Source: Pseudomonadota bacterium
Lineage (GTDB): Bacteria > Pseudomonadota > Gammaproteobacteria > Pseudomonadales > Halieaceae
DNA: 22,379 nt
Assembly: GCA_030591305.1 (NCBI GenBank)
Contig: JAUVBI010000015.1
Coordinates: forward strand, 1-22,379
Direction of reading: 5' to 3'
Position numbers and translations under genes: made by a program. Positions 18,849-20,813 of this stretch are shown here, in pieces. The number at the start of each line of letters is the position of its first letter. The stretch's first letter is position 1. Under the pieces are notes generated by a model. That model was not told the origin of the DNA, searched no databases, and worked only from the letters and a program-made list of their open reading frames with translations.

Positions 18849-19788
18849 TGTCGTACCAGTTGAGTACCCTCAGGTAGCGACCACCGGTTACCCCCGTGAA
18901 GCCGGCATCATAAATTGAAGAGTGCGCATTCCCTATGATATCGGACGACACAATTGGCCTGTCACTGAACTGCAATATGCCCTTGAGGCGATCTGATTCC
19001 GATGCTTCGCGCACTACCGCATGCACCTCGTCAACAGTCACGCTCTGCTCCAGCTTAACGAAAAAATCCACCACGGAACCGTCGGGTACCGGTACGCGTG
19101 CAGCGATACCGTGTAAGCGCCCTTCCAGTGAGGGCAATACAACACCCACGGCTTTGGCCGCGCCCGTTGAAGTGGGAATAATATTCTCTGCCGCTGCTCT
19201 ACTGCGTCGCCAGTCCGAGTGAGGTACATCTGCCAGGCGCTGGTCATTGGTATAGGCGTGCACCGTATTGATCACACCCTCGACAATACCGAAAGATTCA
19301 TTGAGCACTCTGGCCATGGGTGCCAGGCAGTTAGTGGTACAGCTGGCATTGGAAATAATGCGATGCTGCGGTAACAGGCCATCTTCATTCACACCCAGAA
19401 CAATCGTATAATCGATGGCGTCCTTGGCGGGCACCGTCAATAGCACCCGCTTCGCCCCGGCATCAATATGCTGCTGTAATTCTTCGCGCTTGCGAAATAC
19501 ACCGGTGCACTCCACGACGGCATCAATGCCCAGCGCGTCCCAGGGCAGATCTGCCGGGTTCCTCTCACTCAAAAGTTTTGCTCGGCCCTTGGGCGTGACA
19601 AAGTGGTCATCCTCCAGAGCCAGGCTTTTGCCAAAAGGTCCCATGATGGTGTCGTAATTGAGCAGGTAGCGCAGGGCAGCGTGATCGAACAAATCATTGA
19701 CGGCGACCACATCAATGCCCTCTACTTCCTCGAGGATCCGAAACACTGAACGCCCTATACGACCAAAACCATTAATTGCAATTCTCAT
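18790..19788 (-). CDS. gap: Glyceraldehyde-3-phosphate dehydrogenase (type I)
   Basis: The product has 332 residues, the usual length. It oxidises glyceraldehyde 3-phosphate to 1,3-bisphosphoglycerate with NAD and phosphate in glycolysis, or the reverse in gluconeogenesis. All key residues are present: INGFGRIGR for NAD binding, Asp32 (AVNDL) favouring NAD, catalytic Cys150 in SNASCTTNC, His177 in VHAYTNDQ, Thr208-Gly209 (TSTGAAKAV) and Arg231 (ARVPVPDG) for phosphate sites, and NWYDNEWGYS near the C-terminus. HAYTNDQ and the C-terminal motif distinguish it from erythrose-4-phosphate dehydrogenase. Its ATG overlaps the stop of the upstream GAPDH-like gene (ATGA), and its 3' end overlaps or abuts ppc. 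Its direction (glycolytic or gluconeogenic) cannot be read from sequence. Confidence 0.95.
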   Translation of the reverse strand: MRIAINGFGRIGRSVFRILEEVEGIDVVAVNDLFDHAALRYLLNYDTIMGPFGKSLALEDDHFVTPKGRAKLLSERNPADLPWDALGIDAVVECTGVFRKREELQQHIDAGAKRVLLTVPAKDAIDYTIVLGVNEDGLLPQHRIISNASCTTNCLAPMARVLNESFGIVEGVINTVHAYTNDQRLADVPHSDWRRSRAAAENIIPTSTGAAKAVGVVLPSLEGRLHGIAARVPVPDGSVVDFFVKLEQSVTVDEVHAVVREASESDRLKGILQFSDRPIVSSDIIGNAHSSIYDAGFTGVTGGRYLRVLNWYDNEWGYSCRVCDLLARIGQW

Positions 19789-20813
19789 GACGCTACCTCC
19801 AACTGCTTATCAAGATTCGCGTAGAGCCGAACAACATCCAGTAGCCGGGCTGCGTGCCCCAGGTTTTCATACCAACTAAGTGTCTTGACGATGTTTTTCC
19901 CCGCCTTGATGGTTCCCTTGCTGTCAAACAGTAAGGAATGTGAATTACCGATGATGTCGGAAGATACAATGGGATCTTCCACCACATCGACAATACCCGC
20001 GTAATCGGTGATGCTATTTCTCATCACCTGATTAATGTCCTCCGCGCTGACTTGTTCATCTTCCATAACCAGGTTTACATCCAGCAGGCAACCCTCGTGA
20101 ATCGGCACATTGAGTGCTGAGGTAAGCACCTTCCCCTCGAACTGAGGAAGAATATGGCCCAACCACGTGCCCGCATCATGGCTATTGGGGATAATATTTT
20201 TCGCTGCGGAACGGCTGCGACGATAATCACTACCCGCATAATCCTGTAGAGCCTGGTCTCCGGTATAAGCGTGTATGGTGGTCATACTGCCGCATTCGAT
20301 GTCAAAGTCTTTGGATAAAATATTCAATAACAGACACAGCGCTGTAGTTGTGGCCGAGCCTGCAGATAACATGCGATCAGTCACTTCTATCGCACTGCTA
20401 TTAATTCCCGGGATTACAATTCTATCGATGTGGTCAGAGGGCAGTGTGCGCAACAGCACGCGAGGGGCGCCATTTCCAAGATGGTCCTCCATAAACTTGC
20501 GTTCCCGATATTTACCCGTAGAGTCGATAACAATATCGACGCCAAAGATATCCCAGGGAATCTCAGCCGGTTTATCGATGGGCATCATGCGCGCCTTGAA
20601 ACGGGAATTGATCAGGAAGTTGCCCTGTAATTGATGCCGTTCAGGCTCTTTTACCTCCGAACACAACAGGTAGTGCAAGATATCCGGCTTGCCTATGTCA
20701 GCGATAGCCACAATTTCCACATCGTCACTGCGTGAAGCCAGGTCATAAATTTGTCTGCCAGTTTGACCAAAGCCTATGATGCCTACGCGGGTGGGTTTAC
20801 TCTGTGCCATCAT
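19785..20813 (-). CDS. GAPDH paralogue lacking the catalytic cysteine (probable pseudoenzyme)
   Basis: The product has 342 residues from the ATG at 20813, with AAGGAG four bases upstream; the adjacent ATG at 20810 gives better spacing. The whole GAPDH fold is recognisable: IIGFGQTGR, VAIADI with the NAD-type Asp, TIHAYTGDQ, DYRRSRSAAKNIIP, IVSSDIIGNSHS and LSWYENLG. The active-site segment reads SAGSATTTAL where the partner gene has SNASCTTNC, so the nucleophile is Ala154. The phosphate-site Arg is Asn235 (NVPI instead of RVPV), and the TSTGAA loop is replaced by NSHDAG. His181 is kept. NAD binding may survive but normal catalysis should not. It is translationally coupled (ATGA) to the active gap gene, suggesting a regulatory or hetero-oligomeric subunit. 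An altered chemistry cannot be excluded. Confidence 0.9.
   Translation of the reverse strand: MMAQSKPTRVGIIGFGQTGRQIYDLASRSDDVEIVAIADIGKPDILHYLLCSEVKEPERHQLQGNFLINSRFKARMMPIDKPAEIPWDIFGVDIVIDSTGKYRERKFMEDHLGNGAPRVLLRTLPSDHIDRIVIPGINSSAIEVTDRMLSAGSATTTALCLLLNILSKDFDIECGSMTTIHAYTGDQALQDYAGSDYRRSRSAAKNIIPNSHDAGTWLGHILPQFEGKVLTSALNVPIHEGCLLDVNLVMEDEQVSAEDINQVMRNSITDYAGIVDVVEDPIVSSDIIGNSHSLLFDSKGTIKAGKNIVKTLSWYENLGHAARLLDVVRLYANLDKQLEVAS

Follow-up and report, generated by a model that had tools for sequence, protein, structure and literature searches.

The question raised by this locus is why a bacterium should keep, directly in front of a working gap gene, a second gene for a protein of the GAPDH type in which the catalytic Cys is missing. 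The locus is located in a window of 22,379 nucleotides (the whole stretch of DNA that was analysed; contig JAUVBI010000015.1) from a member of the family Halieaceae, and the features of interest within it, all of which are on the minus strand, are as follows.

19785..20813 (-): Cys-less GAPDH paralogue, 342 aa, with an alternative start at 20810
20818..20823 (-): ribosome site AAGGAG of the Cys-less gene, read directly from the sequence
18790..19788 (-): active partner GAPDH, 332 aa, with canonical Cys150, His177 and Arg231; TIGR01534 score 421.1 bits against a cut-off of 367
19785..19788 (-): ATGA overlap of 4 nt, in which the stop of the Cys-less gene and the start of gap are combined, read directly
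19796..19800 (-): ribosome site GGAGG of gap, inside the 3' end of the Cys-less gene, read directly
16140..18848 (-): ppc, phosphoenolpyruvate carboxylase, the third gene; NF000584 score 1091 bits

The Cys-less gene may start at 20813, its first ATG, or at 20810, its second, and its translation is intact with no internal stops; the strong ribosome site and the overlap with gap are likewise present, as the original prediction had described them. In its listed form the ppc ORF extends 59 nt into gap, and its true start is probably nearer to 18790. The upstream neighbour of the Cys-less gene in the window (20989-21813), which adjoins the region ahead of it, codes for a divergent RloA/RimB-like protein; this is a retropepsin-like protein with the domain Zn_protease (PF05618), scoring below the cut-offs of the RloA/RimB models. 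Elsewhere in the window, a 7TMR-DISM histidine kinase and a LuxR-type response regulator (13304-16049) are present 3' of ppc on the same strand, and a protein of 1785 aa (5657-11014), which carries a VWA domain at its C-terminus, has as its neighbour a 793-aa protein with a weak, below cut-off transglutaminase-like match.

Alignment of the two GAPDH-like proteins confirms the replacements that had been claimed for the Cys-less protein. The catalytic Cys position is occupied by Ala (A154; SAGSATTT vs SNASCTTN in the neighbour), the phosphate-binding Arg at the Arg231 position is replaced by Asn (N235; ALNVP vs AARVP), and the TSTGAA loop is rewritten to NSHDAG, inside which N210, H212 and D213 are located (N210 aligns with Thr206 of P0002 and position 212 with Thr208). 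The features said to be retained are also all found, viz. the catalytic His (H181, in HAYTGDQ), the NAD-type Asp (D39), both the RRSR and NIIP segments, and the GAPDH fold. In support of the last of these, the Pfam domains Gp_dh_N (56.6 bits) and Gp_dh_C (139.3 bits) both score above their cut-offs, the AlphaFold2 model (pLDDT 87.7) has a GAPDH fold, the best 50 Foldseek matches listed for this model in the PDB are all GAPDH or E4PDH (29-35% identical), and these two are the sole names among the best 60 rows of each of two PDB sequence searches. With both domains and the fold, the protein belongs to the GAPDH fold superfamily. However, it departs from functional type I GAPDH in the catalytic Cys149/150, in the substrate-phosphate Arg231/232 and in its TIGR01534 score of 238.1 bits, which is below the curated cut-off of 367.2; its score with the Epd model TIGR01532 (174.4 bits) is likewise below the cut-off of 530.55. 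In E. coli GAPDH, according to the excerpts consulted of one paper (PMC8615399), the substrate phosphate is held by Arg232 with Thr180 and Thr182, and the inorganic phosphate by Thr209, Ser149, Thr151 and His177. Because both the Cys and the Arg are missing, the Cys-less protein should, on the established mechanism, be incapable of GAPDH chemistry. Judged by sequence, it has the marks of a pseudoenzyme paralogue, in which the catalytic residues are missing from a gene that is intact and conserved.

If the loss of the Cys were a recent single mutation in this genome, then orthologues retaining it should be found, and the original prediction had named such proteins as evidence against itself. 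In a pool of 313 distinct Cys-less sequences, made up of the nearest matches listed and the loci fetched, none carries Cys at this position, which is occupied by Ala in 188, Thr in 48, Ser in 38, Gly in 23 and Pro in 16 cases. Due to this distribution, a nucleophilic Ser or Thr is not the rule among these proteins. A search of 5.8 billion sequences with the window protein gave 4620 matches above threshold, ordinary GAPDHs being among them; in the best 120 of these, which include the window's own protein, the position is either Ala or Gly (104 and 17, respectively, of 121 rows including the query). When a distant member was used as the query, the best 120 of 5879 matches above threshold showed Thr (48), Ala (36), Ser (33) and Gly (3), and again no Cys. 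The catalytic His is retained in 313/313 sequences, and the Arg231 and Thr206 positions are Asn (the latter Asn210) in 313/313. The position of Gly209 of the phosphate (Pi) site is Trp, Glu or Asp in 296/312 sequences, and the loop residue at the Thr208 position is variable, being mostly H, T, S or N. The sequence features expected for binding of NAD(H), a glycine-rich loop and an acidic residue after the second strand, are present: G14 and G16 of the loop are invariant (310/310) and the NAD-type Asp (D39) is found in 305/311. Several of the residues that contact NAD in E. coli GAPDH have changed, the Arg at position 17 of P0001 being Gln in 183/311 and the contact Asn at 317 being Thr or Ser in 40/313.

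The 46 near-invariant columns are enriched in the stretch that begins at the catalytic His and includes the S-loop, with 12 of 30 positions vs 34 of 305 elsewhere (p = 1.5e-4, for a range that was picked after the columns were seen), and the S-loop by itself has 10 near-invariant positions out of 27 (p = 0.0013). The S-loop is modelled with low confidence in the AlphaFold2 model of the Cys-less protein; a control model made for the active partner gave the same low confidence, and the apparent disorder was thus rejected as a sign of dependence on a partner.

The relationship of the Cys-less proteins to other GAPDHs was determined from two unrooted maximum-likelihood trees. In the first, 32 Cys-less proteins are on one side of a branch with support of 100/99, and in the second, based on a wider set, 34 are on one side of a branch with support of 100/100. 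Both trees also recover the partner GAPDHs as a single clade (100/97), and the remaining GAPDHs sampled branch outside the two clades. Because the Cys-less and partner proteins form separate clades, the Cys-less paralogue did not arise by recent duplication of the gap now beside it. In close pairs, dN/dS is 0.02-0.19 for the Cys-less gene (12 pairs) and 0.02-0.18 for the partner gap (11 pairs, one with saturated dS), and no internal stop is seen in the 77 Cys-less genes translated in full; an apparent break in one further gene is a run of N. The Cys-less gene is under purifying selection, and the view that it is selected for and not decaying is upheld by these results and by the age and conservation of its clade. 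The mirror-tree correlation between the Cys-less protein and the partner is high (r = 0.94); however, shared ancestry alone could give such a value, and this correlation was set aside as evidence of pairing.

A scan of genomic contigs yielded 63 loci; where a family or genus is named for them, it is mostly Halieaceae, with Pseudomaricurvus in addition; the order and class samples added more distant members, which were fetched as part of a further group of loci (L104-L122). The Cys-less clade extends past Halieaceae, and the Cys-less protein is a member of an old, conserved family. In Pseudomaricurvus alcaniphilus, the start of the Cys-less gene is present a second time as a truncated, duplicated fragment (L063, positions 10001-10129); it has 42 codons, of which the first ~37 are alike before a stop, and it is located ~210 kb from the full pair. 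Two assembled genomes each contain two Cys-less copies on different contigs (L018/L032 and L021/L060); these are perhaps mixed bins. No Cys-less copy was found in one scan of viral contigs. A tblastn search of plasmids gave 32 records, all below 60% identity, of which the 20 listed are at 41-45%.

A gene of the partner type is located directly downstream of the Cys-less gene, on the same strand, in all 81 testable loci (61 of the 62 loci L001-L062, in which the gene is complete or nearly so, the 19 loci L104-L122 and the window), a count outside which stand L060, which ends inside the Cys-less gene, and the fragment L063. The conserved clade always adjoining gap that the original prediction had asked for is thus observed. 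For residue counts, 77 pairs could be fully aligned, six of 83 loci (L004, L005, L045, L060, L062 and L063) being left out since the partner or the gene is cut, masked or a fragment; in L004, L005 and L045 the contig ends within the partner. In these 77 pairs the first gene has Ala (52), Pro (16), Ser (5) or Gly (4) and never Cys, and the neighbour has Cys in 77/77, a pattern beyond chance. Spacing was measured in 80 pairs (L004 not among them): 46 overlap by 1 nt, 22 overlap by 4 nt and 12 are 0-15 nt apart. An overlap of one of these two kinds, an arrangement as in translational coupling, is therefore found in 68/80 pairs.

The distribution of the two genes across genomes is likewise linked. 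The Cys-less gene is present in 32/390 genomes of an order-level sample. In a second order-level draw of 279 genomes, in which the partner gap was used as the query, there were 27 matches, 25 of them at 65-83% identity, and these 25 genomes are exactly those with the Cys-less gene (25/25 vs 0/254, where the 279 genomes look by their handles like part of the 390 and the 254 are counted as negatives for the Cys-less gene on that basis, 232 of them not being listed by name). Fisher's test gives p = 3e-36, a value in which the number of independent events is overstated, as the genomes are related. This is the co-occurrence expected for a heteromeric enzyme with a dead subunit. The remaining two matches (G086 and G120) are at 55-57% identity without a Cys-less neighbour, and their GAPDHs branch outside the partner clade, as its sister with weak support (66/77). 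In the family of G001, the Cys-less gene is found in 66/140 genomes (E <= 1e-90); of the 74 genomes of this family without it, the 20 that were listed were searched, and none has a partner match above 50% identity. At the class level, 4/369 genomes match, inclusive of the centre genome (3/369 with another profile), in the family of G619 3/17 match, and in a phylum sample the sole match (1/398) is the centre genome itself. In the genomes sampled, the partner gap lineage is found only where the Cys-less gene is. Scattered occurrence together with decay had been named as a result that would speak against selection; occurrence is indeed patchy, but the gene and its partner come and go together, and decay is contradicted by the low dN/dS and the absence of internal stops.

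The source names of some distant Cys-less members include Acidobacteriota and Candidatus Polarisedimenticolia. In a search with the partner of one distant member, the best 120 of 7999 matches are all GAPDHs with Cys, His and Arg. The exact length of the longest contig is common to 29/120 of the distant Cys-less clusters and the partner matches, compared with 2/119 in a control based on the closest-relative list from the window protein search, equal length being here a proxy for the presence of both genes on one contig. Three of the common lengths are 2.1-2.4 kb, just enough for both genes, and others are from partners named Candidatus Krumholzibacteriia (572,647 bases) and Candidatus Eisenbacteria (215,076 bases), the latter of which we take to be Candidatus Eiseniibacteriota. 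This agreement in length suggests that the pair also occurs in Krumholzibacteriota and Eiseniibacteriota.

Beyond the pair, the neighbourhood is less constant. In 42 of the 80 pairs, the ORF that follows the pair on the same strand belongs to the ppc family. The ORF directly upstream (2-49 nt, same strand) is of the KDPG aldolase family in 20 pairs, and the second upstream ORF, which is on the opposite strand, is of the HexR family in 15; one KDPG aldolase representative, one HexR representative and the window's ppc were identified above curated cut-offs. In Pseudomonas, HexR controls gap-1, edd and zwf-pgl-eda, according to excerpts of a published account (PMC12651266). This control, together with the ppc, KDPG aldolase and HexR-family neighbours, suggests a role in the Entner-Doudoroff pathway or lower glycolysis in part of the family. 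Palindromes of the HexR type, sought upstream with three patterns, were found in 1, 3 and 5 of 80 loci as against 0.45, 0.1 and 0.45 in shuffles, and in the window none of the three patterns is present upstream; they are above chance for two patterns and too few to be claimed as a regulatory signal. In L108, L110 and L111, which are of the Pro-type branch, the pair is immediately preceded by a small Hsp20-like gene; the one member checked scored below the curated cut-offs.

The retention of the Cys-less gene beside one particular working gap in many bacteria suggests that their products function as a pair. The reading that we prefer, which may well be right and may equally be wrong, is that the Cys-less gene codes for a non-catalytic, NAD-binding subunit or regulator of GAPDH fold that is dedicated to the partner gap, probably in a mixed tetramer, and that it can bind NAD(H) as well as a ligand that is not a phosphate; here we infer both the assembly and the binding. 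According to this proposal, the Cys-less protein and the partner GAPDH would assemble, most likely into a mixed tetramer via the conserved S-loop, and the Cys-less subunit would bind NAD(H) through its retained glycine-rich loop and Asp39. The rewritten pocket (His181, Asn210, Asn235) would hold a ligand other than phosphate, and the active subunits would change in activity, affinity or stability according to whether this site is occupied.

The change in several NAD contacts counts against the preferred reading. What speaks most strongly against a purely regulatory role is that these same three pocket residues are invariant, as a subunit that is purely structural or allosteric has no obvious need for His181 without the Cys, or for an invariant Asn210 and Asn235. 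The invariant pocket feeds the main rival, which we regard as possible though rather unlikely, viz. that the protein is a different NAD-dependent enzyme, in which the His would act as a base, with no thioester, on a substrate without the GAPDH-type phosphate contacts, perhaps in complex with GAPDH. The retained dinucleotide-binding features, the Trp, Glu or Asp at the Gly209 position and the central carbon context of part of the family (KDPG aldolase, HexR-family and ppc neighbours) also speak for such an enzyme. However, a Cys position that is free to be any of five residues and a variable Thr208 position would be untidy for one enzyme, a subunit would better explain why the gene is strictly coupled to just one gap lineage, and no substrate can be named for it.

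If the protein instead formed its own homotetramer, then it could be a free sensor of NAD(H) or a metabolite, or a regulator, e.g. of gap-ppc or Entner-Doudoroff genes, that does not touch the partner enzyme. Its position ahead of gap in every testable locus, the presence of KDPG aldolase and HexR-family ORFs close to the pair in some of these loci and the retained NAD-binding features agree with this, but we consider it unlikely, as it is gap that is the constant neighbour and not ppc or eda, and Pfam detects only Gp_dh_N and Gp_dh_C in the protein and no DNA- or RNA-binding domain. Still less probable is a function as an assembly or folding aid, or as an oxidation guard, for the partner GAPDH outside the finished enzyme: the Cys-less ORF is indeed the first of the two and in most pairs overlaps the second, and the partner was not found without it in the genomes sampled, but the invariant pocket residues are then left unexplained. 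That the gene is a recent or decaying copy of the gap beside it, a reading for which the tandem position alone speaks, is refuted by the old clade outside that of the partner, by the low dN/dS and by the 77 genes without internal stops, and we give it practically no credence.

Certain known systems resemble the preferred arrangement of a dedicated, non-catalytic subunit in part. GAPDH is in textbooks a homotetramer, and the type I phosphorylating enzyme (GapA; TIGR01534, PF00044, PF02800) shares with the Cys-less protein the fold, both Pfam domains, the S-loop motif, the NAD-type Asp and the catalytic His; the differences are the missing Cys and phosphate-binding Arg, the rewritten TSTGAA loop and the score below the family cut-off. 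Epd (erythrose-4-phosphate dehydrogenase) is likewise a GAPDH-fold paralogue, whose gene is located beside central carbon genes; however, it retains the Cys, and the Cys-less protein falls far below its model (174 bits vs 531). The likeness to the chloroplast GapA/GapB mixed tetramer would be that of a GAPDH made of two paralogous subunits, although both plant subunits are catalytic and the regulation there is by a C-terminal extension. The trypanosome AdoMetDC prozyme, as described in excerpts of two papers (PMC6221367, PMC10211241), is similarly a catalytically dead paralogue; it forms a heteromer with its active relative, as the Cys-less GAPDH may do, and the fold and the organisms differ from those of the Cys-less GAPDH pair. 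In the excerpts seen of the open-licence PMC literature, neither a dead subunit of GAPDH nor the pairing of an active GAPDH with a Cys-less one was found to be described.

The phenomenon is larger than the original prediction had thought: five different residues (Ala, Thr, Ser, Gly and Pro) take the place of the Cys, the clade extends beyond Halieaceae, and in the genomes sampled the partner is found only with the Cys-less gene. Cultured marine bacteria of the genera Haliea, Parahaliea and Chromatocurvus offer a direct test of the claim of pairing. In its broadest form, which we put forward tentatively and as more doubtful than the dedicated subunit itself, the proposal would be that one glycolytic GAPDH lineage, spread over several bacterial phyla, is an enzyme obligately made from two genes, whose non-catalytic second subunit would bind NAD(H) and a non-phosphate ligand in an invariant, rewritten pocket and would gate the live subunits, thereby acting as a built-in controller of lower glycolysis, although in present annotation it passes for a spare GAPDH. 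The database records in which the Cys-less genes are named GAPDH are probably wrong on the reaction, and metabolic models are affected by this. If the proposal is true, then these genes would represent an overlooked two-subunit form of central glycolysis.
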